Shown piece by piece: positions 488 to 19,582 of a stretch of DNA of 32,523 nt. Made by a program: the position numbers and the translations under genes. How positions within the stretch are numbered: position 1 is the first letter of the stretch; the number at the start of each line of letters is the position of its first letter. Below the pieces are notes generated by a model, which was not told the origin of the DNA, did not search any database, and worked only from the letters and a program-made list of their open reading frames with translations. The stretch is from a virus: IMG/VR virus record IMGVR_UViG_3300048446_000115, positions 1 through 32,523 of that record; one strand, given 5' to 3'.

Positions 488-3436
488 ATGAGTAAGAAAA
501 GATCGAATAGAAATAATAAAAAGGTCTTGAAGGCACTTCGACAGAAGAGGGCTAATGGTGGGCGTTTAAATAGACGTACTGGTGGCCCTAGTGAAGAAGA
601 TATTGAACGCATGATAGCTGAACAAGCAGCACAAGCTCAACAACAGACCCCAGAGCCTGTAATGTCAGATGTCACAGGATCTGCGGAACTATCTCAATCT
701 AACACTACATCTACAGATCTTTCTTTTTATTCTGAAGGTGATCCAAAACCTGAACGATCTGATTATAGCTCTGGTAGTACACGAAAGCAGAACTCAGAAT
801 ATAAAGCAGATTTAGAATCTTGGCAGTCTAGACAAAATAATTCAGCACAATCACGTCCTGAATATGAAGAAGATTTTAATTTTTCTGTCCCAGATGGTGA
901 TACAGATGAAAATGGAGATGACATGGCAGACGAACCTACACCCGGAGAAATAAAACGTGATCGTCTAGCTGACACTGCTAAACGTACAGAACAAATAGCT
1001 ACTGGTGATCCTAATGCACCAAAACCTCCTATGGCTGATGTTGCAGAAACAGATTCTAGTATAAGAACGCCTGAAAGTGATATTGAAACAATAACTGATC
1101 GTAAAGCTACAAAAAAACCTGATGATATTGAAGCTGCTAAAATTACTGCTACAACAGTATCTACTACTGCTCAAGGAACGGCTCCTACTAAATTTGACGC
1201 TTCTACTTATACTGCTGATACTGTTGGAGATCTAGGAGCTACACAAGCTGCACAGGGAACAGTGACTAAGGAAGCAACAGCAACTGATGCAACTATGACT
1301 GCACCTGCTGTAGCTGCTGAGAGAGATGATGCACAAGAACAAAAAGCTTTAGCAGAAGAGCAAGACTTTACCATATCTGATGGTGCTTACGTAGATAAGG
1401 TAACAGGTAAAACTACTGAAGTAGCTCCTACACGCGAAGCAGAGGCTAAACAACGTGAAGCCATTACAGGTAAGCCAGCAGAAGATGGTCAAGCTGCACA
1501 GATCATAGGCACTGTGGGCTATGAAGCTGCACAAAGACGTACAGTAAGAGGTGAAGCTGCAAAAGGCGCAGCAGCCTCTATGGTTGCAGAAGTAGGTGAA
1601 TTACCTCCAGAGATTACAGCAGCCATTGTAGAAGACCCTGCAACTGTTGAAGCGCAGATTGATGATCAGCCCGTAGAAGTACGTGCAGCCGTTGCAGCGT
1701 TGCCTACAGAAGCCTTGGTATCTTCTCAGATGGAAACGCTACTAGCAGGTATGGAGGATGGAAAGACTCCTGCATGGGCTAGACCAGCCGTTGCAGCTAT
1801 TGAGGCTAACCTAGCCAAAAGGGGCCTCTCAGCCTCCACAGTGGGCCGTGACGCACTCTTTAATGCAATCATACAAAGTGCCCTACCTATGGCTCAAAGC
1901 AACGCACAGGCCCTCCAGCAACGTGCAGCACAGAACCTAAGTAATGAGCAACAGGCAAGCCTTGCACAGTCTACACAAGACATGCAGCGACGTATGGCTA
2001 ATCTTTCTAATAGGCAGACAGCAGCTTCACAGACTGCACAGTATGCACAGCAGATGTCTACGTTACAAAGTCAATTTAGTCAACAGGCTGTACTTACTAC
2101 TGCACAACAGCAACAGCAAACTCGTGTACAGAACTTACAGAATCAACAACAAGCTGCTGTACTTAATGCACAGATGCAGCAGGCTTCTAATGCTCAGAAC
2201 TTAGGTAATGATCAACAAATGGAGTTGGCTAATCTACAGATAGCTGATGCTACTCAACGTGAAAACATGACTGCTCAGAATCAAGAGCGTCTTGCAGAGA
2301 TGCAGGTTGCAGCCGACTTTTTAGCAAAGAATGCAGCCTTTAAGCAACAGATGGAACTAGCTAATCTAAGTAACGATCAACAGATGAGGCTTGCAAATCT
2401 TTCTGCTTTGAATCAGGCAGGCGCACAGAATCTTAATGCAGCACAACAGACTGAACTAGCTAATCTCAATACTCTTATGCAAACTAATATGTTGCAAGCT
2501 AACCTTGCTCAACAGATGAATGTTGCACAGCTTAATGTTGATCAGCAACGTGCAGTACAGAATGCAGCCATGGTTGCTAATGTAGACTTAACTAAGTTTA
2601 ATGCTGCACAACAAGTAGAACTAGCAAATAGCAAGTTCATGCAGTCTATGACTATGGCAGACTTTAATGCTAATCAACAAGCAGCTATGCAAAATGCTAC
2701 AGCGATGGCTGCTATGGATATGCAAAACGCTGATGCACGTACTAAAGTATCTATTCAGAATGCTCAAAACTTCTTAGCTATGGATATGGCTAATCTTAAT
2801 AATAGACAACAGGCTAATGTTCTTGATCAGCAGTTAAAGCAGCAACGTCTGCTTTCAGATCAAGCTGCTTCTAATGCTGCGAAACAGTTTAATGCTGCAT
2901 CAGAGAATCAGGTCAATCAGTTTCAAGAGAGTCTTGCTGCCAATATGAGTCAGTTTAACGCAGCCCAATCAAATCAAATGGCGCAGTTTAATGCCTCTGA
3001 AACTAATAGAGCAGCAGCTATAAATGCAGGAAATCAACTAGAAGCTGATAAGATTAATGCAGATATTGCAGCTAAGATAAATACGTTTGACGCAGAGCTA
3101 CAGTATAGAACTGAACAATGGAATGCTGCTAATGCACAAGCTGTAGAGCAGTCTAATGTTGAATGGAGAAGAAAATCTAATACGATTAACACAGCAGCAC
3201 AAAATGCAGCCAATCAACAAAATGCTCAGTTTGCTTTTAATATGAGTACGCAAGCACAGGCTCAGTTATGGCAAGAACTTAGAGATCAAGCTACATTTGA
3301 TTTTCAATCTTCACAATCCGATATAGACCGTAAGGTTAATATTGTTAACGCTGCACTGGGTAATGAACGACTGCTGACAGACTCAGGATTAAAAACTGAG
3401 AAGAATAAAATATTTAGATTACTTGACCAAATATAG
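488..3436 (+). CDS. giant Gln/Asn-rich repeat virion protein (982 aa)
   Basis: Residues 1-35 are very basic (KKRSNRNNKKVLKALRQKR). About 40-300 look disordered, with acidic and Thr/Ala-rich stretches. About 300-470 are predicted helical. From about 475 to 960 the protein consists of degenerate repeats rich in N, Q, A, M and L with recurring cores such as QQMELANL, NAAQ, QMRLANL and QFNA. The pattern suggests a long helical fibre or coiled coil. Position directly ahead of the ejection-type proteins suggests a virion or internal structural protein; I cannot assign an exact role. The gene follows the previous stop by 2 nt. Residues near 246-254 (GDLGATQAA) resemble a motif in the next gene product. 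Confidence 0.82.
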   Translation: MSKKRSNRNNKKVLKALRQKRANGGRLNRRTGGPSEEDIERMIAEQAAQAQQQTPEPVMSDVTGSAELSQSNTTSTDLSFYSEGDPKPERSDYSSGSTRKQNSEYKADLESWQSRQNNSAQSRPEYEEDFNFSVPDGDTDENGDDMADEPTPGEIKRDRLADTAKRTEQIATGDPNAPKPPMADVAETDSSIRTPESDIETITDRKATKKPDDIEAAKITATTVSTTAQGTAPTKFDASTYTADTVGDLGATQAAQGTVTKEATATDATMTAPAVAAERDDAQEQKALAEEQDFTISDGAYVDKVTGKTTEVAPTREAEAKQREAITGKPAEDGQAAQIIGTVGYEAAQRRTVRGEAAKGAAASMVAEVGELPPEITAAIVEDPATVEAQIDDQPVEVRAAVAALPTEALVSSQMETLLAGMEDGKTPAWARPAVAAIEANLAKRGLSASTVGRDALFNAIIQSALPMAQSNAQALQQRAAQNLSNEQQASLAQSTQDMQRRMANLSNRQTAASQTAQYAQQMSTLQSQFSQQAVLTTAQQQQQTRVQNLQNQQQAAVLNAQMQQASNAQNLGNDQQMELANLQIADATQRENMTAQNQERLAEMQVAADFLAKNAAFKQQMELANLSNDQQMRLANLSALNQAGAQNLNAAQQTELANLNTLMQTNMLQANLAQQMNVAQLNVDQQRAVQNAAMVANVDLTKFNAAQQVELANSKFMQSMTMADFNANQQAAMQNATAMAAMDMQNADARTKVSIQNAQNFLAMDMANLNNRQQANVLDQQLKQQRLLSDQAASNAAKQFNAASENQVNQFQESLAANMSQFNAAQSNQMAQFNASETNRAAAINAGNQLEADKINADIAAKINTFDAELQYRTEQWNAANAQAVEQSNVEWRRKSNTINTAAQNAANQQNAQFAFNMSTQAQAQLWQELRDQATFDFQSSQSDIDRKVNIVNAALGNERLLTDSGLKTEKNKIFRLLDQI
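1915..3290 (+). repeat. degenerate Q/N/A-rich coding repeats
   Basis: Within the 982-aa gene the DNA is built from many diverged copies of short blocks coding for xNLxxQQQxELANL-like units about 15-25 residues apart (for example near 2219, 2350, 2383, 2450 and 2610), then QFNAAxxNQ units near 2885-2990. The bases follow the protein (CARCAR, AATGCW), so this is an amplified protein repeat and not a DNA satellite. It could vary in copy number by slippage or recombination between relatives. Confidence 0.7.
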
Positions 3437-3445
3437 GAAACAGCT

Positions 3446-4555
3446 ATGGGATTTTTTAGTAAAATTTGGAAAGGTGTAAAGAAGACCTTCAAAAAGATTG
3501 GCAAGGGTATTAAGAAAGCCTTTAAGTCTGTAGGTAAGTTCATGGGCAAAATTGGTATCTTAGGCAATATAGCTCTTGTCTTGTTAACAGGTGGCTTAGG
3601 TATAGGAGGGATGTTTGGCGCTTTTGGCGCTAAGTTAGGTGCTTTATCTACTACTATGAGTGGCCCTTTAGCGGCTATTATGAAGGGTGCTTCTTGGACT
3701 ATTGGAAAGGCTGTACAATTTGGTAATGCTATTGGTAGCGGATTCAAGACTTTAACAAAAGGTGTTACTGAGTTCTTTGGACAGACTGCTAAATATGTCG
3801 GTAACAAACTAAACATTACAAACATTCAAGGAGCGCCTACTAATCTGGGAGAGGTTTGGAGTAATACTTCTAAAGCAGTTTCTGATCAGTTTGAAGTTTT
3901 TAGAGGTGATGTAGGAGATTTATTTAATACTACTTCACCTACGTTGGAGGCTGGTAAAGCTGGTTTGTCCTATAGTGATTATCAAGAATACATGAGTAAA
4001 CCTCAGACTTTGGATGAGTTTAAAGAAGCTAAAGGACTCACACCTCAATTAGATTTTCAACAAACCCCTGTTGAGCCTGTATCGTTAGACTTGCCACAGC
4101 AATCAACGGGGCCAAGTCTGTCAGGGCCGATGAGTCCAGTAGATGTAGGAGCTACTCAAGCAGCAGAAGCTAGTAGGGGTTCTTTTATGGATTCTATTCT
4201 TAATCCAACTAAGCCGCTTGAAGAACAAACATTTGTAGAAAGGCTAACAACTCCTGCTAACTATGGTAATGCTCTTGCTACTGGAGTGACACAGATGCCA
4301 GCAGCACTTGCTACTCAGAGTCTTCTTGGGGCTGTTCAAGATGATTCTCTATATGATGTTGGTGCTACTGGTGGATATGCTCCTCAGTTCCAATCACAAG
4401 ATTATGGTGCTGTAGCTCAAGGTCTAACACCTATGCAAGATCCTGTATGGAGTCAACAGTTATTCGACTATGATGCATTTGCTCAACAGTTTGGTGGAGG
4501 CTATGGTGCCTATCAAACTTATGGTCAAAGACTTAGAAACTTTGGAGGTGGTTAA
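3446..4555 (+). CDS. virion protein with cationic amphipathic N-terminus and glycine-rich membrane segment (369 aa)
   Basis: Residues 1-38 form Lys/Phe amphipathic repeats (KIWKGVKKTFKKIGKGIKKAF) that look like a membrane-active peptide. They lead into a Gly/Ala/Leu hydrophobic stretch at about 39-70 (ALVLLTGGLGIGGMFGAF). The middle is hydrophilic and Pro-rich, and the C-terminus is Gly/Tyr/Gln-rich (QQFGGGYGAYQTYGQ...NFGGG). A motif DVGATQAA near residue 233 matches GDLGATQAA of the preceding protein. Position between the Q/N-rich protein and the ejection proteins suggests a role in genome entry through the envelope. Function is inferred from composition and context only. GGAGGTG near its 3' end serves as the ribosome binding site of the next gene. 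Confidence 0.8.
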   Translation: MGFFSKIWKGVKKTFKKIGKGIKKAFKSVGKFMGKIGILGNIALVLLTGGLGIGGMFGAFGAKLGALSTTMSGPLAAIMKGASWTIGKAVQFGNAIGSGFKTLTKGVTEFFGQTAKYVGNKLNITNIQGAPTNLGEVWSNTSKAVSDQFEVFRGDVGDLFNTTSPTLEAGKAGLSYSDYQEYMSKPQTLDEFKEAKGLTPQLDFQQTPVEPVSLDLPQQSTGPSLSGPMSPVDVGATQAAEASRGSFMDSILNPTKPLEEQTFVERLTTPANYGNALATGVTQMPAALATQSLLGAVQDDSLYDVGATGGYAPQFQSQDYGAVAQGLTPMQDPVWSQQLFDYDAFAQQFGGGYGAYQTYGQRLRNFGGG

Positions 4556-4557
4556 TC

Positions 4558-5076
4558 GTGGCTGAAGTGCAATATGACAATGATGAGATTGATCAGGTTT
4601 ATAGGGAGAAAGCAGGACAGTTAGCTCGTCCTGTTCCGGGAGAGTCTCTTACCAATGATCCTGAAAATCCTATGCCTTTTGAACAGGCTCCAGAGTACAC
4701 AGACCTTACTACGGCTTTAGAGTATTACTTTGCAACCTTTACAGAAGAAGGTACATACGAGAGCCTTCTAGAGACTATAGCTGGTGGTACTCCTATAATG
4801 GATATTGTACAGCTTATACTTTATCAAGGCTTTCAGGATGGTTTGTTTAATCCTGATCTGATGATGATGCTTGCAGAGCCTCTGGCTTATATGTTAGCTG
4901 CTTTCTGTGAGCAAGAAAATATTGAGTTTGTCATACAAGGTGATGATGAAGAGGATATGGAAGAAGAGCAAAGTCTGCCTATGATGAAACAAGCTTTAGG
5001 ACAGATACAAGAACCGTCACCTGAAGCAGTACCTGAACAAGTACAGTCGCTGCTATCAGCTAGAGGAGATCAGTAA
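4558..5076 (+). CDS. conserved acidic phage protein (172 aa)
   Basis: The start is GTG at 4558 (MAEVQYDNDE), with GGAGGTG at 4544-4550 lying in the end of the previous gene, so translation is probably coupled. The core at residues 50-120 is helical and hydrophobic (YYFATFTEEGTYESLLETI, DIVQLILYQGFQDGLFNPD, MMMLAEPLAYMLAAF). It is followed by a very acidic linker (GDDEEDMEEEQ) and a polar C-terminus. I do not recognise a named family. It is encoded among virion proteins and could be a chaperone or connector of the ejection proteins. The stop codon overlaps the next start (TAATG). Confidence 0.78.
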   Translation: MAEVQYDNDEIDQVYREKAGQLARPVPGESLTNDPENPMPFEQAPEYTDLTTALEYYFATFTEEGTYESLLETIAGGTPIMDIVQLILYQGFQDGLFNPDLMMMLAEPLAYMLAAFCEQENIEFVIQGDDEEDMEEEQSLPMMKQALGQIQEPSPEAVPEQVQSLLSARGDQ

Positions 5077-7829
5077 TGGTTACACTTGGAGAAGGGTATC
5101 GCGCACTAGGAGCAGGAATGTCAAGCTCTTATAGAAGCCGTGCTAAAGAACTTAAAGATCTTCAGCGTCAGCAACTTCTTATGGCTGCTTTGACTCCTGT
5201 TGCTCAAGGTGTAGGTCAATTTGCGACTGATCTTATTTCAGCGCCTTTTAAAGAGCCAGTAAAACAGTTTATGAACACTGCGGAAGGAAGACAACTAAGA
5301 ACTATTAAAGCTGCACGTAGAGCAGATCAACAGCGTGTTGCTGCAAGACAAAAAGTTATATCTGAATCTGGCCTTGATGATGAAAGTTTTATTCGGCAAG
5401 AAGTAGCAACCAATGTTGATGCACAGATGACGGCTGATTTAGGGGATGAATTCACTAACAACGGCTATTTATTTGCTAAAGAACGTTCTCAACGTATTAA
5501 TGACAACACAGCCGCAAGGTTAGCGTCTTGGCAGGATGCACAGAAAAAGGTAGCTACTGTGTACACTGATGATGAGTGGAGGGACATCATTAGTGAATAT
5601 AATCCAGAGCCTGCTAATTTAGGACAAGGACTGTGGCAAGGCGGTAAAAGACTTTTAGGCTTTGGTAAAAGTAGAGAAGAGTCTCGTAGGGATGCTTTTG
5701 ATGAAATTCTTACTTATTTTGAATTAGATCCTGCTAACTACTCTACACCAGAGTCAACTAAAAAGACACTGAATGAAATACGTTCAGGTATTGTACAAGG
5801 TGTGAGGCCGTTTAATCCACAAGAAATAGATCAACAGCTTCAAGGTGACTTTAAAAACAACATGGCATTTCAAAGCGTCCTGACGAGAAGAGAAAGGGCT
5901 AAAGCTGAGTATAAATATTTCTCTGAAAACCACTCTGATTTGTTTCTCAACGCTTATGATGAGGCTGGTCAAGATGTTCAAAAGGCGTTGCGTATTGTAG
6001 ATAAAACTCTTGCTAAGAACGCTGAGTTGCTTGATCCTACTGAAGCTTCTAATGTTGCTAGTTTTGTTAGAGACTATAGTGGAGATGAAATTTCAGCAGA
6101 GGTACAGATTAAGTTACGGGATTCTTTTTATAGAAGCATGTATCCTGAAACAGCTTTTGAGGATCTCAGTGATAAGCAAAAAGAAGATTATGCTACAACG
6201 GCTAAAGCCAGAATGGAATCTACTATAGCTACGGCTTATAGTTACGGTACTAGGGCGGCAGCTAGACAAATAGAAGAGTTAAAGAAAAGCAATCCTACAA
6301 TGTACGCTGAAAAGTTTGCGGGTACTGCTACTGCTGACACAAATAAGACACAGCTTGTTTTAAACAATATGCACAATCTTCTTGAAAACCACTTAGCTGA
6401 AATAGAGATAGTCACTAGTGAAAGGATGTTCTCTGCTGATGAAACTATGAGTATCTTCAGTGGTCAGTTGAGTATTCCTAAAGAAGGTCTTCCTTTTGAA
6501 GAACGTACCACGGTAGTAGCTGAACCTGCTGGAGGGGCTACTGCTACTGATCCTAATGCTACTGCTGTTCCTGTTGCTGCCCCTACAGACAAGGAGACAT
6601 TTGAACTCCCAAGAGGTGAAGCTATAGTAGCTCAGTATGAGGCAGGAGATACCGCACAAGCCTTTAAAACAATACGCTCTACTATTAAACAAGATATTAA
6701 AAATAGAAAGTTTTCTAGTGCAGAAGAAGCTGTTTCCTATGGATTACAGGCTTCTCAAGATATTGCTGATAGTTTTGGTCTTCCTAATCCTTTAACAACT
6801 GGTACGGGCAGACCCGCTGTTAAGAACTCTGTGTTTGCACAGGATGGCGATACTCAAGAGTTTTCTATTGAAGGCGGTTCTAAGTCTTTGCTAGGGAGAG
6901 ATGTAGATGTTAGAGACGCTACATACACACTATCGCTGGATGGTGGTCAAGTTAATGTGTCTATAAGTCAGCCGGGAGAAAGAAGTAAAAGACCTCTTAC
7001 TCTAGAAGAAATACCTGAAGGCAACATAAAAAATCATCTTACTTACCTAAAGATGACCTATCAAGGTAACATAGAAGAGTTGCAATCTCTAGGTGTAGAT
7101 GAGCCACAATCAAGAAGTTTGAGTGGTTTAAATGGCAGAGCTTTGGAGCTAAAGAAGATTAATAACGAACTTCTAGGCGCTATAGATCTTCCGGGGCTTG
7201 GTGACAGAGGTGATGTCATATCTTTTTTGACAGCTACACCCTACAACGAACCAGAGAAATCTGAATCTTTACTGAGCGATCCTACTGAAGAAGCTCCAGC
7301 AGTATCAGACTTTGAAGCTCCTGATGCTTCTACAGTAGAGCAGGTGGCTGCTGAAGTTTCTAAGTTGTTCAATGATGGAAAGGCTGCTACAGCGTTGCTT
7401 AGAGAGACTGCTATTCAAGAGTCTAATATGGGCCAGACAACTGGCACGTATGATATGGTTGATGACCCTAAGTTCGGTAGAGGCAGCTTTGGAGTAGGTC
7501 AGGTAGATGAACGAAACTTTGAAGATACAATGTCTCGTCTGCGAGGAGATAAAGGTCAACCTAGAAACCTTGTTAAATATGTACAGCGTTTCAAGGATGA
7601 ACTGGGTATTGACTTGACTGAAGTTGAATACGAAGATCTGGCTGATCCTAAATTAGGTTTAATCTTTACAAGGCTTCACTACTTGAAGAATCCAGACCCT
7701 GTTCCACCTACAGTACAGGGGCGCTCTAAGTATTGGAAGAAGTTTTATAACACCAGTGCAGGTGCTGGTACGGCTGCGGAGTACTTAGCTAATCAAGAAG
7801 CTTATGCTGATATATATGGGGATGATTAA
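5076..7829 (+). CDS. large virion/ejection protein with C-terminal lytic transglycosylase-like domain (917 aa)
   Basis: The ATG at 5076 overlaps the previous stop, with AGAGGAG just upstream. Most of the protein is helical and hydrophilic with no TM segment, as in ejected core proteins. An Ala/Thr/Pro linker (GGATATDPNATAVPVAAP) lies near residue 488. The last ~170 residues resemble a lysozyme/SLT-type fold: ALLRETAIQESNMG with Glu782 in the place of the catalytic acid, then GRGSFGVGQVDERNFEDT, the usual G-xx-Q-V segment after the catalytic Glu. In T7 the transglycosylase of gp16 is at the N-terminus; here it is C-terminal. It would open peptidoglycan during DNA entry. Enzyme activity is inferred from the motif. 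Confidence 0.82.
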   Translation: MVTLGEGYRALGAGMSSSYRSRAKELKDLQRQQLLMAALTPVAQGVGQFATDLISAPFKEPVKQFMNTAEGRQLRTIKAARRADQQRVAARQKVISESGLDDESFIRQEVATNVDAQMTADLGDEFTNNGYLFAKERSQRINDNTAARLASWQDAQKKVATVYTDDEWRDIISEYNPEPANLGQGLWQGGKRLLGFGKSREESRRDAFDEILTYFELDPANYSTPESTKKTLNEIRSGIVQGVRPFNPQEIDQQLQGDFKNNMAFQSVLTRRERAKAEYKYFSENHSDLFLNAYDEAGQDVQKALRIVDKTLAKNAELLDPTEASNVASFVRDYSGDEISAEVQIKLRDSFYRSMYPETAFEDLSDKQKEDYATTAKARMESTIATAYSYGTRAAARQIEELKKSNPTMYAEKFAGTATADTNKTQLVLNNMHNLLENHLAEIEIVTSERMFSADETMSIFSGQLSIPKEGLPFEERTTVVAEPAGGATATDPNATAVPVAAPTDKETFELPRGEAIVAQYEAGDTAQAFKTIRSTIKQDIKNRKFSSAEEAVSYGLQASQDIADSFGLPNPLTTGTGRPAVKNSVFAQDGDTQEFSIEGGSKSLLGRDVDVRDATYTLSLDGGQVNVSISQPGERSKRPLTLEEIPEGNIKNHLTYLKMTYQGNIEELQSLGVDEPQSRSLSGLNGRALELKKINNELLGAIDLPGLGDRGDVISFLTATPYNEPEKSESLLSDPTEEAPAVSDFEAPDASTVEQVAAEVSKLFNDGKAATALLRETAIQESNMGQTTGTYDMVDDPKFGRGSFGVGQVDERNFEDTMSRLRGDKGQPRNLVKYVQRFKDELGIDLTEVEYEDLADPKLGLIFTRLHYLKNPDPVPPTVQGRSKYWKKFYNTSAGAGTAAEYLANQEAYADIYGDD

Positions 7830-10800
7830 TGGCTGAACCTCAAGACGATTATTTTGACAGAGTATACGCTGAGTCTTCCGAAGAAGACAGGAAAGCTTTA
7901 GATCAAGGTACTCCAGATTTCTTTAGAGAGTTAAAGTACGGTTTTGAACGTGCTACTTTCATGGGCGCAGATGTAGCTAGATTAGCAGAAGCAGGTACTT
8001 CGGGAAAGACCATACAAGAAATAGAGGCTGAAAGGCTTGGGCGTATTGAGGCCAGATATTCTGATCTACCTAAAGCGTCTAAAGAATCTTACACTGCACT
8101 GGGCGGTGAAATCCTTGGAGAGGTTTTAGATCCTACATTAATAGGTCTAGGGCCTTTAGGGTTTGCGGCTAAGGGTACTAAGCTTGGGAAGCTAGGGCAG
8201 CGGGTTTACTCTTCTGTATATGGAGGGGGCTTGTACGGCTCTGACGCTGCTATAGATATGGCTGCTAGAGGTGAAGATATAAGTGCCACAGGGGTAACTA
8301 TAGGCGCTTTAGCAGGTACTTTAGGTGGTGCGTTTATAAAACCTGTAGTAAAGAAAAGCACTCCAGAAGCACCAGCAACTATAAAGCTTGAGACAGCTAC
8401 TGATGATGCTATTAGTTTACCTATTGCATCAGTTTCAGATGAACAGGAAGTAGCAATTAAGAAAGTATTTGCAGATGTGGATGCTTCTAATCCTTCGTTG
8501 ATGGATTCACTTGCTGACTTACCTAACATGGGTGCTAAAGTGGCTAAGGCTAGAGAAACTAGAATTAGGTACAAAGAAGAGTATGCCAAAAGAAAAGCTA
8601 AACGAGCAGGTGCTTTAAGTAAAGATGAGTTAGCGAAGCTGCGTAAAGAACGTGACGCTGCTAGAGAAGAGATGCGTACCTTGCCTACTGAGATGATGCG
8701 TAACTCAGAAATAATATCTGATGCCTTCTTAGAAAGTGCTACAAGGCTTGATAAGCAGGGTCTTCTTAATGAAAATACTATAGGTAGGATTGTAACAAGA
8801 CCCTTAATAGGTGCTGGTATTGGCTATGGTTTAGGAGTTACTAACCAAGCTATCACTGGTGAAGAAGACTCTTTAAGTCCTATGTGGTTTGTTACGGCTG
8901 GTCTTATTGGTGGTCAACTGTCTAAAAAGATAATGAACTCAAAGTTTTCTACCAGTGTAAAAGAAGAAGGCTTGAAGTCTTTAGAAGAGTTAAATAACAG
9001 ATCACTGGCGGCACAGGCTAATCTTTTATTTTCAGGAACTACTGCTGCTAGGTTGAACACATTAGGTGATGATGTTTCAGCTTTTGGAAGAACTCTTCTA
9101 GCTCAAAGAGGAGCAGATCTTAAAGGTGCAGCTACTGTATCTGTAGAGGAAGCTAAAGATATAGCTGCTCAAGAGTTAAACAATGTTTTTTCTAAAAGCA
9201 TGATGAATCTTGGAGTGCTGGGTAAGGATAACGACAGGATAAGAAAGGCAGCTTGGCAATACAGTGAAGGTTTTGCTGATGAATCTACTTTACTTGGTAG
9301 AGGTTTTAGTGCAGCAGAAGTAGATGTAGTAAAGCAACTTAGTGACGAGGCAAAAGCTATTGTGTCCTCTGTTACTAATGAAGCAGAAAGTGTAGGCTTA
9401 CAATTTTTAAAGCTTGAAGATTACGCACTACCACAACTTCACGACTTCGCTAAGATAGGTGCTGATCTTGATGCAGCAAAATCTGCGTATCGTAGAGCTT
9501 TCATAAAACAGGCTAGAGCAGATCGTGTTTCTGCTGCCCTTTTAAAAGATCCTAACGCAGATGTATCTAAAATAAATCTTAGCGAAAAGCAGATTCAATC
9601 AGCTTCAGACGCTGCTGATAAGTGGGTCATGGATGCTTCTACTCTGGGACTTCCCGGTGGTAGGGTTAAGAGTGCGTGGCAAGCAAAAACCCCTGCTGAA
9701 AGAGAAATGTTCAACACAAGACTCACTCCCTTAGCCGATCACTTTGAAAAAGATAGGGTTATAAAAGACCTAGAAGCTAGGAGAGAGATACAAGACTTTC
9801 TGGTACAGGATGTTGCTGAGATTATACCTCAGTATGTGGACAATAGTATGCCGATCATTGAGTTTGGTAGGGCCTTTGGAAGCCGTGGTGAAGTTATATT
9901 TGAACTGAAAAGAGCCATAAACGCAGAAGCAGAGGCGGCTAAGAGGGCCGCTAAAGGCGATAAGAGGCTTTATACCTTAGCAGACAAGGTACGTAGAAAC
10001 AAAATAAAAGCGATTCACGATTCTGTAGAAATGTACTTCGGAACATATCAGGCGGCTAACAGGCTTGCTTCAAGCGGTGCAGCGACAAATGCCTTGGGAT
10101 TACTTACAACGCTAGGCAACACCACAATGTTAACCAAGGTTACGCTTGATAGCATGGGCGATATGGTTCAGCCGTTTGTTAACAGCGGCTTTTGGAACTC
10201 TATTAAGGGTATGAAGCGTACCAATTCAAAAGAGATGACAGACTTTGCAGAAAGCACCGGCTTTGCTCAAAGGGATGTACTGTCACAAGAACTTAGATCT
10301 TTGATGTTAGATAGGAATAATGCTCTGTCTGTTACTCAGCGTGGTATAGCAAAGAGCAACGAAATTTTCTTTAAGGCTATCGGCCTTGCAAAACTTACAT
10401 CATACGCTAGGCGCTTTGCTTACAATACAGGTATTGAAGACGCTTTCAATATCGCACAAGATGTTGCAAAGAAGGGTATGACTAAAACAAACTTAAACAA
10501 AGCTAAGGCTTTGGGACTTTCTGACGATGCTATTACTACGTTACAGAAGTTCAAAAATGTAGATGAAGCATTTGACGATGTTGACGGTAAAAAGATTTTA
10601 AATATCGCAGGTATTAAGACTGCTGATAGAGATGTTCTTATACCTCAAGTAGGGAACAGGTTAGGATTTACACAGTCTAAAGACCCTCTTATAAGATCTT
10701 TGGGTCAGTTCTTGTCTTGGGCGCAAGCTAAGACTACCCAAACTAATGCTATTGTACAACGTATAGAAGATGGTGATGTTGCACTAGGTGTACGAGCTTT

Positions 10801-12787
10801 GGGTTCATTGGTTATATATGATGGCATCATGACCTTCAAGCAGTACTTGAATGATCCTACAGGTAAGTATCTTCCAGATGAAGTTGATTCGTATGTAGAG
10901 AAATTGATCACCCCTGAGCAGCTTGGATCGTCTGTTATACAGGGTGGCTTTTCTCCTTTCTATGCTCAGAAAGCAGCTTCTTTGATATTCACTCCTTACG
11001 GGTCTACTGTCACAAGTAATATTTCTCCTACGATAAGTTTGATGGAAGATTTGGGTGAACTTGTTTTTGAATCTACTCCTAGAAACTTAGAGCAAGAAGA
11101 CTATGAGGGATTGGCTCTTCAATATTTAAGAAGGGTTCCTTTCGGAAAAGAAGTAGAAGACGTGCTGGCTGTGACAGGGAACGAGCTTGAAGATGTTGGT
11201 AAGAAGTCCAAAGGCAAGGGCGTAGAGAGCAGTTTTGTACCTCTTTACAACAAAGGCGGTGAAGTACTTGACGTACCTAACGTACCTACAGAGCCTGATG
11301 AGCGTATTGACAAGATGACAGGTCTACCTTATGACCAACAGGCTGGTACAGCTTTTGTGGACGAGGAAGACCCTCTACGTAGGCTAGGCTTCAAGGGAGG
11401 TGGTGAGGTAGATCCTCTGGCTCGTCTTGGGTTTGGTATAGGTAGTTTAGTATCTAAAGGTTTTGCAAAGCTTACTGGCGATGCTGCTGATGTTAGCGAA
11501 GAAGCATTCAAGAAAGAGATGGATGACCTTGCAGGAGCTATTGACAAGGGCGAGACACCTAAGATGTTTGAAGAGCCTTTAGAACCTGAAAAATCTGAAG
11601 ACTATCTAGCTGCTATAAACATGAAAGAAGAAGACATAACTGCTTGGCAAGCAGCTAATAAACTTCCAGAAAGTAAGAGACAGAAGCAAAGACCAGAAAT
11701 TATTCAATCCTTACAGCAAGTCCTATCAGGTAAAAAAGCTATAGAAGAACATAATAAACTGGTTGATGAGGTGTTCCCTCCATTCCTTTACACAAAAGAA
11801 AATGCACCTGAGTTTCCTACTCTAGTAGAGGTTAGGGGAGCCGTAGGTAAGAAAACTTTAACAGGCGGTAGAGGTATTATAGATGCCGACGTTTCTGTAG
11901 AAGAAGGACGCAGAGTTTCTTCTAGGTTAGATATACCAGCGTATGACCAAAGAGGTGTCTGGGCTGTAACTTTACATGAGCCGGGGAAAAGTGGTAAGGC
12001 TTTTGCTTACGGACAATCTGCTATATTGAAAAATGTAGAGTTCACCACCAATCCAAAAGATGCTTTGGATATTGCAATGGGACAAGCCAAGGGTACTATT
12101 GCTCGTATTGAGGGAGATTGGGTCAACCACGATTCTAGAAAAACTTATACAGAAGCTTTGGATCTACTAAATAGTGATGAGTGGGTTCAAGTGGGGATGA
12201 ATCCTTACAAGCATTCATATTTTTATGATAAAGCAACCATGAAGCCGTTAAAGTCTGCATCAGAAGTTATACAGGTAGGCCCTTTAGTTCTAGCTAAGAA
12301 AGACAACAAGTTGATCTATGCAGAAGCTGATGATTTTAAAGTTGATTTGAGTCCTGAAAGTATTAAAGGTAAGAAGAAGTTGAGGGATCAGGAAATAAAT
12401 GTAGACAGTGTTTCTTTTATGGAAGGAGGCAAGGTACTTAAAGCCCTGTCAAGAGGCAGATACGCAATGGGCAGGGAAGTACGTGCCGATATGCGTAGGG
12501 CTGATGGGTCTGTTAAGTCAGTACGGGGTTACTTAGGGCCTGTTGAGAACACAGTACAGGGTGGAACCATGACTGAGGTTTCTATAGGGACAGAAATTAA
12601 TGGAAAGAAAATGGAAATACCTACAATGGTTCCTACACTTACAGAGGATGAGGTTAAGGCGCTATCATCTATGAAGCTTGAGGGTAATGCTAAGAGCATT
12701 CCTAAGTCTATTATTATGAAGGCCAAGGAACATGCTCGTATGCGCTTAGAGCAGGGTAAGAGTCCATTTTATCAGGACGGTGAATGA
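7829..12787 (+). CDS. giant ejection-type internal virion protein with extra C-terminal domains (1652 aa)
   Basis: Residues 1-1150 match the style of large podovirus internal core proteins: hydrophilic helices plus Gly-rich hydrophobic patches (ATGVTIGALAGTLGGAFI near 155; PLIGAGIGYGLGVT near 330) that could cross membranes. Near 1140-1200 is a linker with KGGEV and two copies of DPLxRLGF around KGGGEV. Residues about 1325-1510 form a separate domain with LDIPAYDQRGVWAVTLHE, GTIARIEGDWV, WVQVGMNPYKHSYFYD and VIQVGPLVLAKK. I recall this pattern from very large 'polyvalent' proteins of phages and mobile elements. Residues 1570-1652 carry another recurrent phage tail domain (VSIGTEINGKKMEIPTMVPTL...HARMRLEQGKSPF). 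It is probably injected with the genome and may carry an effector. The precise roles are unknown. Confidence 0.8.
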   Translation: MAEPQDDYFDRVYAESSEEDRKALDQGTPDFFRELKYGFERATFMGADVARLAEAGTSGKTIQEIEAERLGRIEARYSDLPKASKESYTALGGEILGEVLDPTLIGLGPLGFAAKGTKLGKLGQRVYSSVYGGGLYGSDAAIDMAARGEDISATGVTIGALAGTLGGAFIKPVVKKSTPEAPATIKLETATDDAISLPIASVSDEQEVAIKKVFADVDASNPSLMDSLADLPNMGAKVAKARETRIRYKEEYAKRKAKRAGALSKDELAKLRKERDAAREEMRTLPTEMMRNSEIISDAFLESATRLDKQGLLNENTIGRIVTRPLIGAGIGYGLGVTNQAITGEEDSLSPMWFVTAGLIGGQLSKKIMNSKFSTSVKEEGLKSLEELNNRSLAAQANLLFSGTTAARLNTLGDDVSAFGRTLLAQRGADLKGAATVSVEEAKDIAAQELNNVFSKSMMNLGVLGKDNDRIRKAAWQYSEGFADESTLLGRGFSAAEVDVVKQLSDEAKAIVSSVTNEAESVGLQFLKLEDYALPQLHDFAKIGADLDAAKSAYRRAFIKQARADRVSAALLKDPNADVSKINLSEKQIQSASDAADKWVMDASTLGLPGGRVKSAWQAKTPAEREMFNTRLTPLADHFEKDRVIKDLEARREIQDFLVQDVAEIIPQYVDNSMPIIEFGRAFGSRGEVIFELKRAINAEAEAAKRAAKGDKRLYTLADKVRRNKIKAIHDSVEMYFGTYQAANRLASSGAATNALGLLTTLGNTTMLTKVTLDSMGDMVQPFVNSGFWNSIKGMKRTNSKEMTDFAESTGFAQRDVLSQELRSLMLDRNNALSVTQRGIAKSNEIFFKAIGLAKLTSYARRFAYNTGIEDAFNIAQDVAKKGMTKTNLNKAKALGLSDDAITTLQKFKNVDEAFDDVDGKKILNIAGIKTADRDVLIPQVGNRLGFTQSKDPLIRSLGQFLSWAQAKTTQTNAIVQRIEDGDVALGVRALGSLVIYDGIMTFKQYLNDPTGKYLPDEVDSYVEKLITPEQLGSSVIQGGFSPFYAQKAASLIFTPYGSTVTSNISPTISLMEDLGELVFESTPRNLEQEDYEGLALQYLRRVPFGKEVEDVLAVTGNELEDVGKKSKGKGVESSFVPLYNKGGEVLDVPNVPTEPDERIDKMTGLPYDQQAGTAFVDEEDPLRRLGFKGGGEVDPLARLGFGIGSLVSKGFAKLTGDAADVSEEAFKKEMDDLAGAIDKGETPKMFEEPLEPEKSEDYLAAINMKEEDITAWQAANKLPESKRQKQRPEIIQSLQQVLSGKKAIEEHNKLVDEVFPPFLYTKENAPEFPTLVEVRGAVGKKTLTGGRGIIDADVSVEEGRRVSSRLDIPAYDQRGVWAVTLHEPGKSGKAFAYGQSAILKNVEFTTNPKDALDIAMGQAKGTIARIEGDWVNHDSRKTYTEALDLLNSDEWVQVGMNPYKHSYFYDKATMKPLKSASEVIQVGPLVLAKKDNKLIYAEADDFKVDLSPESIKGKKKLRDQEINVDSVSFMEGGKVLKALSRGRYAMGREVRADMRRADGSVKSVRGYLGPVENTVQGGTMTEVSIGTEINGKKMEIPTMVPTLTEDEVKALSSMKLEGNAKSIPKSIIMKAKEHARMRLEQGKSPFYQDGE

Positions 12788-15179: not shown

Positions 15180-16151
15180 CTAGGCAACCTTAGTAAAGGA
15201 AACTTTACCAACGTCACCGCGCAGCCCAGCCTTCATGTAGGTGGTGGCACGGCCTTCAAAGAAGTTCTGATGCTCTACACCTAGCACATCGTCAAGCCAG
15301 TTTAATGGGTTGTCCTTGACTCCATAGTTAGGTTTGAGTCCTAACTGTAACAACCTACGATCAGCAATGTACCTTATGTACTGCTGCATTTCCTGCTTAG
15401 TCAAGCCCGGTATGTCGCCTTGCTCAAACACAAGATCCAAGAACCTATCCTCTAGGTCAACCATTTCACGGCATGCCTGATAGATCTCCTTCTTGAAGTC
15501 ATCAGTCCATAGGTCAATGTTCTCCTGCATAAACTCCCTGAAGAGCTTTGTCATTGCCTCTACGTGCATGGACTCGTCACGTATGCTGTAGGTAATGATC
15601 TGTCCCATGCCCTTCATCTTACCAAAGCGCGGGAAGTTCAGTAGGATGATGAAGCTACTAAAGAGTTGCAGCCCTTCAGTGAATCCTGAGTATATCGCCA
15701 GTGCCTTAGCTATAGACTTCTTGTCGCCCTTAGTGACCTTCACAGCGTTGATGTACTCGTGCTTGTCAGCCATAGCCTCGTACTCTGCAAACGCCTTATA
15801 CTCCAACTCTGGCATCCCTACAGTGTCCAATAGTAAGCTATAGGCATGTTGGTGTATTGACTCCATGTTAGCGAAGCTAGACATCATCATACGTGCCTCT
15901 GGCTTCTTGAAGATACGCATGTAGCGGTCTACATAGCCAGCACCTACGTCTACGTCTGACTGTGTAAACAAGCGGAAGATCTGAGTCAGTAGGTTCTTCT
16001 CCTCGTCAGTCATCGTCTGCCAGTCTTTCACATCATTGTGCAGCGGTACGTCCTCTGGGAACCAGTGCATCTGGTTCTGCTGTGAGTAATAGTCGAACAT
16101 CCAAGGATGGTCAAATGGTTTGTAGTAGTCTCTAGTATCTAATAAGCTCAT
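15180..16151 (-). CDS. nrdB: ribonucleotide reductase class I, small (beta) subunit (323 aa)
   Basis: The di-iron radical-generating subunit. The expected ligands are visible: Asp66 (TQSDVD), Glu97 and His100 (NMESIHQHAY), Glu158 (GFTEGLQLF), Glu192 and His195 (RDESMHVE). Tyr104, seven residues after Glu97, matches the radical tyrosine of class Ia (E. coli Tyr122). The C-terminus (VSFTKVA) would dock on NrdA. It makes dNTPs for phage replication with the nrdA gene, although several small genes lie between the two. The start at 16151 overlaps the upstream gene by ATGA. Confidence 0.95.
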   Translation of the reverse strand: MSLLDTRDYYKPFDHPWMFDYYSQQNQMHWFPEDVPLHNDVKDWQTMTDEEKNLLTQIFRLFTQSDVDVGAGYVDRYMRIFKKPEARMMMSSFANMESIHQHAYSLLLDTVGMPELEYKAFAEYEAMADKHEYINAVKVTKGDKKSIAKALAIYSGFTEGLQLFSSFIILLNFPRFGKMKGMGQIITYSIRDESMHVEAMTKLFREFMQENIDLWTDDFKKEIYQACREMVDLEDRFLDLVFEQGDIPGLTKQEMQQYIRYIADRRLLQLGLKPNYGVKDNPLNWLDDVLGVEHQNFFEGRATTYMKAGLRGDVGKVSFTKVA

Positions 16152-17459: not shown

Positions 17460-17703
17460 AGAATCCTTCCTCTAACAGTTTTGTGTACTTATCGACATAT
17501 TCTTTGTAGCTCAAGGGTGCTTCACGCCTTTTGCATTTGTCATCCATGTAGCTTGCCCACATCTGAGAGCAATAGTAGCTATACAGCCAAAATTGCTCAT
17601 CTAAGTCCCTATAGTAGTCTAGGTACTCTTTCCATGATACAGACTTTTTTAGCTCTGGTATATAAAATTTAGCCCTGTAGACAGGGTGTTCATCAGCCTT
17701 CAC
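17440..17703 (-). CDS. small hypothetical protein rich in Tyr and Lys (87 aa)
   Basis: Start ATG at 17703 lies 11 nt inside the end of nrdA. The sequence holds SVSWKEYLDYYRDLDEQFWL, YSYYCSQMWASYMDDKCKRR and SYKEYVDKYTKLLEEGFYD. It includes two similar short blocks, (S)xKEYLDYY and YKEYVDKY, which suggest an internal duplication of a helical unit. I do not recognise the family. Co-transcribed with nrdA. Confidence 0.68.
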   Translation of the reverse strand: MKADEHPVYRAKFYIPELKKSVSWKEYLDYYRDLDEQFWLYSYYCSQMWASYMDDKCKRREAPLSYKEYVDKYTKLLEEGFYDRPKD

Positions 17704-19582
17704 AGCTTAGACACTCCTCTTCTAAATTAATTCTTGGTATCTTGATGTTAACATTCTCTGTATTTCTAGCCGCTGTAGTTCGCAGGTAATACATAGATTT
17801 GAGTTTGTTAGCTCCTGTCCAATGTACGTGATTAACGTATGCCAAATACTCATCGTGTACCTCCTGTGGTGCTGTCGCTGGGGGCGGCTCAAAGAATAGG
17901 TTTACTGACTGCGCCTGACAGACGTACTTTTGTCTTTGGTAGGCGTGTTCAATGACCCAGATTTGGTTAAGTTCAGGCGCTGTTTTAAATACCTCCTTTT
18001 CTTCTTCTGTGAGTTTCTCCAAGTCTTTAACAGAGCCTTCAGCAGCAGCAATATCTTTCCACGTTTGTTCGTTGTTAATACCTTTCTTCTCAAGTAACTC
18101 CTCCAGATACTTATTCTTTACCTTGTATGAGCCTGTCAGCGTCTTGTGCGTAAATACGTTAGCCCTCGTTGGCTCAATTGAAGGACTCGTTCCACCGCAT
18201 ATAATGCTACTAGAGGCATTAGGAGCAATAGCAAGCAGGTGAGAATTACGAAGGTTCCTACCAACCATATCAGGTGCTTCAGTACGTTCAGATGCAAGAA
18301 CACTAGAAGCTGATGTGGCTCTATCTTTAATGTGCTTGAATGCTCTGTTATTGAAACTGGCAGCGTACATACCTTCAAAAGGTATATCATTGCGTTGTAG
18401 GTAGCTGTGAAAGCCCATCGCTCCAAGGCCAATTGCGCGTTCTCTATATGCACTATAAGCGGCTTTTGTAAAGCCTTTTTTATCTGGGTGAACATACTTG
18501 CTAAACTCCTCAAAGGTGTCATCAAAGTGCCACGCATGTTCTCCATGTGTAGCGTTGTCAATGAAGTGTTCTATCACGTTGTCAAGCATTGTGATTAGAT
18601 CACTGATGAATAACTCATTGTCCTTCCATTCGTCAAAGTACTCTAGGTTCACACTAGATAAACAACAGACTGCTGTACGTTGCTCGCTAGTCGCTAAGGT
18701 AATCTCAGAGCATAGGTTACTCTGGCGTACCTCTAGTCCCATGTCCTTCTGTGTCTCAGGTAGATCCTCGTTACAGCGGTCTAAGTTAACAATGTAGGGT
18801 TCCCCTGTCTCTGCCCTAGTGTGTATTAGCTGCCACCACAAGTCCCTTGCCGATACAGTCTTGATGGCCTGCTTAGACTTAGGATCAATCAGTCTCCACT
18901 GGTCATCGTTCCTGACTGATTCAAGGAACTCATCTGTTATTGTAATTCCGTTGTGTAAATTAAGACACTTACGGTTAAGATCACCGCCAGTAGTCTTTCG
19001 CATGGCAATAAACTCTTCAACTTCTGGGTGAGTAATATCCATGTACGCTGCATAAGATCCTCTTCGTGTGATACCTTGATTAAACGCCAGCATCTGACTA
19101 TCAACTACGTGCATGAAAGGAATGCTACCAGTAGACTGACTACCGTTAGAAGTTGAAACACCATTACTTCTAACAGCACCCCAATATCCACCCAAGCCTC
19201 CACCTCCACTTGCCAGCCATATGTTCTCATCATAGTGGTCAGATAAACCACGCCTTGAGTCAGGAACATAATTGAGAAAACAGCTAATAGGTAAACCACG
19301 AGTGGTTCCCCCGTTGCTAAGTATAGGAGTGCTAAAACCGAACCAGCCCTTGCTTGCGTAGTCGTAAAGTCGCTGTGCAAGATTGTAGTCAGTATGTCCT
19401 TGATAAGTTGCACTATAGACCGATGCTCTTGCGAAGGCTTCTTGTGCATGGGTTTCATCCTCCCAGAAATATCTATCTTTTAAAGTTTCTAGAGAAAAAT
19501 TATTTAATAGGCCATCACGATCATAGTCAATCTGAATCCCCAAATAATCCTGCTTGCCAATTTTGGATGTCGTACTCGTCAT
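17693..19582 (-). CDS. nrdA: ribonucleotide reductase class I, large (alpha) subunit without ATP cone (629 aa)
   Basis: The catalytic subunit that reduces ribonucleotides. Visible residues are Cys101 (LPISCFL, first redox Cys), Asn289/Cys291/Glu293 (SNLCSEITL, the N-C-E active site), Cys306 or Cys307 (AVCCLSSVN, second redox Cys), Tyr598/Tyr599 (KSMYYLRT, radical transfer) and the C-terminal Cys624/Cys627 pair (CLSC). It starts almost at the catalytic domain, so the ~90-residue N-terminal ATP-cone that confers overall dATP inhibition is missing, as in many phage enzymes. AGGGAG precedes the ATG. The partner NrdB is encoded downstream. Confidence 0.95.
   Translation of the reverse strand: MTSTTSKIGKQDYLGIQIDYDRDGLLNNFSLETLKDRYFWEDETHAQEAFARASVYSATYQGHTDYNLAQRLYDYASKGWFGFSTPILSNGGTTRGLPISCFLNYVPDSRRGLSDHYDENIWLASGGGGLGGYWGAVRSNGVSTSNGSQSTGSIPFMHVVDSQMLAFNQGITRRGSYAAYMDITHPEVEEFIAMRKTTGGDLNRKCLNLHNGITITDEFLESVRNDDQWRLIDPKSKQAIKTVSARDLWWQLIHTRAETGEPYIVNLDRCNEDLPETQKDMGLEVRQSNLCSEITLATSEQRTAVCCLSSVNLEYFDEWKDNELFISDLITMLDNVIEHFIDNATHGEHAWHFDDTFEEFSKYVHPDKKGFTKAAYSAYRERAIGLGAMGFHSYLQRNDIPFEGMYAASFNNRAFKHIKDRATSASSVLASERTEAPDMVGRNLRNSHLLAIAPNASSSIICGGTSPSIEPTRANVFTHKTLTGSYKVKNKYLEELLEKKGINNEQTWKDIAAAEGSVKDLEKLTEEEKEVFKTAPELNQIWVIEHAYQRQKYVCQAQSVNLFFEPPPATAPQEVHDEYLAYVNHVHWTGANKLKSMYYLRTTAARNTENVNIKIPRINLEEECLSCEG

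Follow-up and report, generated by a model that had tools for sequence, protein, structure and literature searches.

The DNA analysed in this study, called the window below, is a 32.5-kb virus record by itself (IMG/VR record IMGVR_UViG_3300048446_000115, 32,523 nucleotides). It carries a gene for a long protein with a repeat region rich in Ala, Gln and Asn. The open reading frame (488..3436, + strand) begins with ATG, is free of internal stops and codes for 982 aa. No family in Pfam, PHROG, NCBIfam or PDB was found to cover the protein, which is labelled hypothetical in nearly all records carrying it. The segment of aa 446-930 contains 20.2 % A, 19.4 % Q, 13.2 % N, 1.0 % G and 0.2 % P, and Q+N make up about one third of its residues. 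The sequence-only reading of this locus described the repeats as having almost no charge, which was overstated, since D+E+K+R amount to 12.6 % of the same segment and occupy fixed positions of the repeat. The parts of the protein and its neighbours are listed in Table 1. The start of the N-terminal arm is basic (14 K+R versus 6 D+E in aa 1-60), and the length of the acidic linker differs greatly among relatives. The head segment holds an invariant P-x-W-A and an RGLSAS motif, the distance between the two anchors by which rods were counted is 423 residues, and in the tail the register can be traced for about four further units, beyond which the sequence is variable.

Table 1. Features of the rod gene and of the genes downstream of it in the window.
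Feature	Position	Strand	Remark
N-terminal arm, aa 1-390	488..1657	+	basic start, then acidic linker
Conserved head segment ahead of rod, aa 391-465	1658..1882	+	
Hendecad rod, aa 466-894	1883..3169	+	39 consecutive 11-residue units, single register
C-terminal tail, aa 895-982, and stop	3170..3436	+	
369-aa protein	3446..4555	+	three cationic 11-residue units, then hydrophobic segment (KD 1.92, aa 42)
172-aa acidic partner	4558..5076	+	most constant neighbour
917-aa medium protein	5076..7829	+	resembles T7 gp15 in size and place only
1652-aa large protein	7829..12787	+	resembles T7 gp16 in size and place only

Autocorrelation of aa 446-930 (2000 shuffles) gave identity z values of 7.6, 9.7, 5.5, 8.2 and 8.3 at lags 11, 22, 33, 44 and 55, and all other lags within 1-60 stayed at z <=2.4. 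The repeat proposed by the sequence-only reading is thus real (z 5.5-9.7 at lags 11-55), but its description as degenerate, with two cores, has to be replaced: the QxxLANL and QFNAAxxNQ parts belong to one array with a unit of exactly 11 residues, as in QQMELANLSND and NQMAQFNASET. A lag-7 (heptad) signal is missing from the rod (z -1.1). Seven other window proteins were without such a lag series, and only the 369-aa neighbour had a single lag-11 signal (z 4.5). No tandem array matching the repeat was found in the window DNA, which indicates that the repeat exists at the protein level. Fourier analysis of the hydrophobic residues at 3.6-3.67 residues gave no signal because two hydrophobic faces cancel, as the position profile revealed. 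By its primary structure, the region comprises about 39 hendecads, nominally three helical turns each, in unbroken register, and it is nearly certain that the protein contains a hendecad rod.

A tblastn search against 50,697 phage records matched 27 records, with a few duplicates among them. Occurrence in marine phages, stated in the sequence-only reading, was confirmed for phages of the HMO-2011 type (pelagiphages HTVC033P/103P/104P/115P, Roseobacter CRP phages and SAR116 phage HMO-2011). The range also takes in Vibrio CHOED, Aeromonas MQM1 and 1233, Pseudoalteromonas Slicky01, the rhizobial phages (Sinorhizobium phiM6 and Rhizobium RHph phages) and one uncultured podovirus. The matched region was annotated as "hypothetical protein" except in the uncultured podovirus ("huntingtin") and Aeromonas 1233 (none). 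In IMG/VR, a single-sequence search returned 30 loci, and an alignment search confirmed at least 507 stretches among its first 600 candidates, from which 78 loci were kept. Nine loci sit in bacterial genome records, all metagenome-assembled, and were left out of the analyses. In total, 110 distinct proteins were extracted, the window protein included; the loci are related to each other and were chosen by similarity.

Rod length was measurable between anchors in 83 of the 110 proteins, the remaining 27 being fragments or without a recognisable anchor, and the anchors were relaxed once steps of 11 had already been seen in an initial pass. The rods ranged from 148 to 863 residues in 17 distinct lengths, and every one of the 83 was 5 mod 11. 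Comparison of repeat number among relatives, proposed by the sequence-only reading as a check, hence showed that all 83 rods differ by whole units. The lengths of the N-terminal arms were scattered over all residues mod 11, and rod length and arm length were correlated (rho 0.61). Moreover, the register was tracked with a position profile in the 110 proteins; 109 were measurable, with at least four confident windows each, and all 109 kept to a single phase, meaning >=90 % of windows. The profile came from 83 of these proteins; among the 27 outside it, 26 were measurable and all 26 were single-phase. The family spans 13 to 78 units per rod, and the frequent lengths of 313, 423, 533, 643 and 863 residues are separated by multiples of 110, or ten units. 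A supra-repeat at lags 55 and 110 is seen in long rods.

The gene of the 172-aa neighbour served for a quick tree (76 rows, SH-aLRT only, 21 of 73 inner branches open), on which rod length changes at least 30 times, a count that would be inflated by recombination between genes. Close pairs differed by clean rod inserts of 66, 110, 121 and 330 residues, mostly in the N-terminal part of the rod, and the indels outside the rod in such pairs (1, 2, 14, 19 and 30) were not multiples of 11. In some pairwise alignments, a single length difference appears as several gaps that singly are not multiples of 11 but together add up to one. In the pair L002 and L080, the rods differ in length by 440 residues and the partners are nearly identical, with a ragged alignment of the insert. 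Judged from these sequences, relatives alter rod length by whole hendecads only.

The AlphaFold2 model of aa 380-982 (39 sequences) was all helix with zero strand. Its confidence in the rod was low (mean pLDDT 59.6, pTM 0.24), and the rod was broken into many helices, the longest of 112 residues (window aa 806-917); such low confidence is expected of a rod needing partners and is not evidence for partners. A Foldseek search with the rod model returned no PDB match at E <= 0.001. Among 30,720 rod residues of the family there are 1 P and 364 G, and the rod is very probably alpha-helical. A beta-solenoid, which the pentapeptide-like "ANL" might bring to mind, was rejected as the model is without strand and the rod is poor in V/I/T/G/P. 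On a wheel of 11 residues per 3 turns, positions 4 and 7 (33 and 327 degrees) and positions 2, 5 and 9 (196, 131 and 164 degrees) are hydrophobic or Ala. Positions 1 and 8 (98 and 65 degrees) are 1 % hydrophobic and mostly Q/N/S/T, and positions 3 and 10 (295 and 262 degrees) are 41-45 % charged. In 83 of 83 proteins, charge was higher at 3/10 than at 1/8 and Q/N/S/T was higher at 1/8 than at 3/10. The first and second hydrophobic harmonics were 0.03 and 0.93, and the first was 0.13 with Ala counted; permutation of the two-face harmonic gave p 0.12 for hydrophobics and 0.04 for charges, which is only suggestive with 11 pooled positions. Two opposite hydrophobic seams, an uncharged Gln/Ser/Asn face and a charged face are supported by these data. 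With two opposite seams, a helix is able to pack against a neighbour on either side, as in a helical barrel or sheet. The face pattern would suit a helical barrel and would speak against a single-seam coiled coil or a membrane-surface helix.

A tube with a related pattern has been described for the pilot protein H of phiX174, in which residues 151-271 form a decameric, DNA-conducting tube 170 A long, 18 of 23 inward residues are N/Q/R, and residues 151-183 are three hendecads, with Q151 opening crystallographic hendecad 1 (Table 1 of PMC7354561). When scored against the family profile, H 151-183 reached +12.75 bits in the sole frame that sets Q151 at position 1; the ten other frames gave -17 to -60, and 3 of 20,000 shuffles reached +12.75. 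The best H window scored 22.9 bits, equalled by 0 of 1000 shuffles, and among 986 other ORFs H came seventh, the six above it being QN-like proteins from loci with weak matches. H (PDB 4JPP/4JPN) and the rod have in common helical 11/3 hendecads with Q at 1 and 8 and, in the same register, L/I/M at 4 and 7 and mostly acidic residues at 3 and 10. Q at positions 1 and 8 would presumably point into the H tube. H and the rod differ in that the 121 residues of H consist of three hendecads, a kink and eleven heptads, and the window rod consists of about 39 hendecads without heptads. Furthermore, H belongs to an ssDNA microvirus and the rod protein to a dsDNA podophage, without a family-level sequence match. 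Profile-profile comparison of the family with H by hhalign was not significant (probability 1.3 %), and the microvirus pilot family was missing among the Pfam hits of 34 rod-family members. Because hhalign does not support homology, it is suggested by analogy that the rod protein may work like H, and the claim that it is an H is not made. In literature searched for hendecads with phages or ejection proteins, the H paper was the sole relevant one under the terms used.

HMO-2011-type podophages share a conserved late cassette that opens with the rod gene. Across 15 annotated phage records, the rod gene lies downstream of tail and fibre genes, sometimes with lysis genes between. The usual order after it is at least one small or variable gene, a gene for a protein of about 165-190 aa, and then the genes for the medium and the large protein, beyond which come non-structural genes, often on the opposite strand. 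T7 (gp14-gp15-gp16) and P22 (gp7-gp20-gp16) have a similar small-medium-large late series behind the tail genes; compared with that series, the rod gene is an extra at the front. The medium protein was smaller than the large one in 34 of 34 loci with both downstream ORFs complete and adjacent (62 loci). Over these 34 loci, rod length did not correlate with the size of the medium protein (rho 0.19, p 0.29) and correlated weakly with that of the large protein (rho 0.39, p 0.024, kinship ignored). The 172-aa partner was present at 97 of 109 loci, and 11 of the 12 misses had <1 kb or zero sequence past the rod gene; its model (pLDDT 79.5) had no PDB fold match at E <= 0.001. The 369-aa protein is a candidate membrane-active partner. 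With regard to a peptidoglycan hydrolase in the cassette, the C-terminal domain of the 917-aa protein matches phrog_3108, a family with no assigned function, and contains an E-S-x-x-G / G-x-G-Q pattern that may be lysozyme-like; a search for copies of this domain returned one near-identical contig. The gene that follows the rod gene in CRP-603 has a SleB match with a score under the cut-off. Over aa 258-618, the relative of the rod protein from CRP-3 has a match to phrog_6121, annotated as "virion structural protein".

No match was found between the rod protein or its neighbours and the named ejection-protein families. The ejection proteins of T7 and P22 have no sequence match to the rod and are without comparable hendecads: in T7 gp14/15/16, P22 gp7/20/16 and DEV gp72/73, 0 of 3,990 windows reached 12.75 bits, with T7 gp14 and P22 gp20 marginal against shuffles (45/1000 and 34/1000). 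A review has noted that most gp15 homologs are assigned by size and synteny, not by sequence (PMC8954989), and the genome-map legend for the Roseobacter RCA phages (CRP group) includes an "internal virion protein D" (PMC6918029). The gp72:gp73 proteins of Pseudomonas phage DEV (Schitoviridae) were reported as a nonamer ejection channel of about 300 A (PMC10925440). They are helical ejection proteins with a long channel, like the proposed rod tube; unlike the rod, gp72 has a weak lag-7 signal (z 2.3) and lag-11 is absent. In the accessible parts of the literature on phiGT1, MQM1, phiM6 (PMC6256558) and HMO-2011-type phages, no virion proteomics of the rod protein was seen. We infer an ejection role, and the protein likely belongs to an ejection cassette.

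The following mode of action is proposed. Several rod copies would align side by side through their two seams into a helical barrel like the phiX174 H tube, the Gln/Asn face lining the inside and the charged face turned outward. Once the phage has adsorbed, the subunits would exit the capsid together with other cassette proteins and build a conduit across the envelope through which the DNA would pass. The number of hendecads would set the length of the conduit, and any change other than by whole hendecads would disrupt the lateral packing. An internal ejected (pilot) protein of an HMO-2011-type podophage whose rods form an envelope DNA conduit is, by a narrow balance, the favoured reading, and for the hypothesised tube a lining of DNA is about evenly poised. 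The broader proposal is rather less likely than not, namely that a dsDNA phage conduit may be a purely hendecad barrel with a Gln/Asn lumen and 13-78 units, its length set by whole units and often altered among close relatives, with a repeat grammar in common with phiX174 by convergence on, or descent from, a general code for DNA tubes. As a straight helix of 1.5 A per residue, 423 residues would extend for about 63 nm and the longest rod for about 129 nm. The Gram-negative periplasm is narrower than 63 nm, and only the shortest rods (22-27 nm) fit comfortably. Long rods may therefore fold back or reach further, or they may indicate a fibre or ruler.

A fibre would be the shaft of a trimeric tail fibre, spike or needle, a coiled-coil rod in which length variation tunes reach. 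The rod gene lies directly downstream of tail-fibre genes, and the CRP-3 relative has a C-terminal Peptidase_S74 chaperone, a domain usual in trimeric fibres, in whose shafts stepwise length change is common. Against such a shaft, the hydrophobic residues form two opposite faces where a dimer or trimer would have one seam, the gene opens a cassette with the small, medium and large series, and the proteins of Salmonella 7-11-like phages that have only the S74 domain in common are annotated as DNA ejection or injection; we regard it as rather unlikely. Siphophage tail tape-measure proteins are long helical rulers, and the rod could in a similar way fix an assembly length or scaffold an internal core without lining a DNA channel. 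Quantised rod length and the weak PHROG tape-measure matches of the 369-aa neighbour (best E 4.4e-5) agree with this. These matches, however, belong to the neighbour and not to the rod protein, rod length follows the medium protein not at all and the large one weakly, and podophage tails are short: the MQM1 tail was given as 9.2 nm (PMC10410586), versus about 27 nm for a rod of 181 residues, MQM1 being the only phage compared. A ruler or core scaffold is improbable on these grounds.

Apolipoprotein and alpha-synuclein helices also have an 11-residue repeat, and the cassette holds a membrane-active-looking neighbour, so that the rod might be thought to coat or perforate the host membrane as a surface helix. 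Such a helix needs one hydrophobic face, but the first harmonic is near zero even when Ala is counted, and a strongly hydrophobic segment was found in only 2 of 110 homologs, which makes this very unlikely. It is extremely unlikely that the region is a low-complexity, prion-like or disordered Q/N stretch with no fixed fold. The Q+N content and the low confidence of much of the AlphaFold2 model would fit disorder; the single register of up to 78 units in 109 proteins, the helix-only model, the near absence of P with few G, and the position-specific hydrophobic and charged sites do not, and the prion-like label was unsupported. Among the roles named in the sequence-only reading, an extendable trans-envelope tube is the best surviving idea, and fibre and scaffold are less favoured, because an ejection-type tube accords better with the cassette position, the whole-unit lengths and the resemblance to the phiX174 H pattern.

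If the conduit reading is true, the phiX174 H tube would no longer be a lone case, and DNA tubes of unrelated phages would follow one simple 11-residue code, Q-x-x-L-x-x-L/A-Q/S, the charges lying on the outside. Long helical barrels with a polar lumen would also become available for nanopore work. What fixes the length of such a conduit could be studied on an existing natural series of rod lengths, which have changed many times in whole units. HMO-2011-type phages have been counted among the most abundant viral groups of the sea (PMC9038755), and the way in which they cross the envelope would become testable.

The 369-aa protein encoded next after the gene of the rod protein (the 982-aa protein with the 11-residue, or hendecad, helical repeat array) begins with three cationic 11-residue units of the pattern F-x-x-I/V-x-K-x-V/I/M-x-K-x, which are followed by a hydrophobic segment with a KD peak of 1.92 at aa 42. 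Autocorrelation gave a lag-11 z (self-identity at an 11-residue offset relative to shuffles) of 4.5 for this protein. Its hendecads differ in kind from those of the rod and look, from their sequence, to be of a membrane-active type. A few hendecads in the same register as the rod's were also found in a 440-550-aa protein of a different phage group (loci L025, L023 and L027-L031); in L025, this protein has Gly-rich hydrophobic flanks, and large proteins come next.

Features of the window and of locus L025
Feature	Location	Strand	Remark
369-aa protein	3446-4555	+	N-terminal hendecads, then hydrophobic segment
phrog_3108 domain, medium cassette protein	aa 750-910 of 5076-7829
Domain and separate C-terminal stretch, large cassette protein	aa 1375-1482 and 1557-1652 of 7829-12787
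Product taken as class I small subunit of ribonucleotide reductase	15180-16151	-
Ribonucleotide reductase large subunit	17693-19582	-
Hendecad-bearing protein	L025:8906-10540

The 863-residue rods of loci L080 and L097 exhibited a supra-repeat at lags of 55, 110, 220 and 330 residues, and the rods of L080 and L002 differed by 440 residues despite near-identical partners (counterparts of the 172-aa cassette protein). In the Roseobacter phage CRP-3, the C-terminus of the rod protein is fused to a Gly-rich hydrophobic stretch and a Peptidase_S74 chaperone; related S74 ends are present in Salmonella 7-11-like phage proteins annotated as DNA ejection proteins.

The annotation of several named relatives lists a B12-dependent enzyme, whereas the window encodes a ribonucleotide reductase large subunit and a putative class I small subunit.

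Among the late genes of the proposed ejection-type cassette, the medium (917-aa) protein harbors a phrog_3108 domain common to Klebsiella, Vibrio and Shewanella phages. Judged by its sequence, the large (1652-aa) protein is a mosaic, in which a Phage_L5_gp82 domain is accompanied by a distinct C-terminal segment common to Acinetobacter and Pseudomonas phages.
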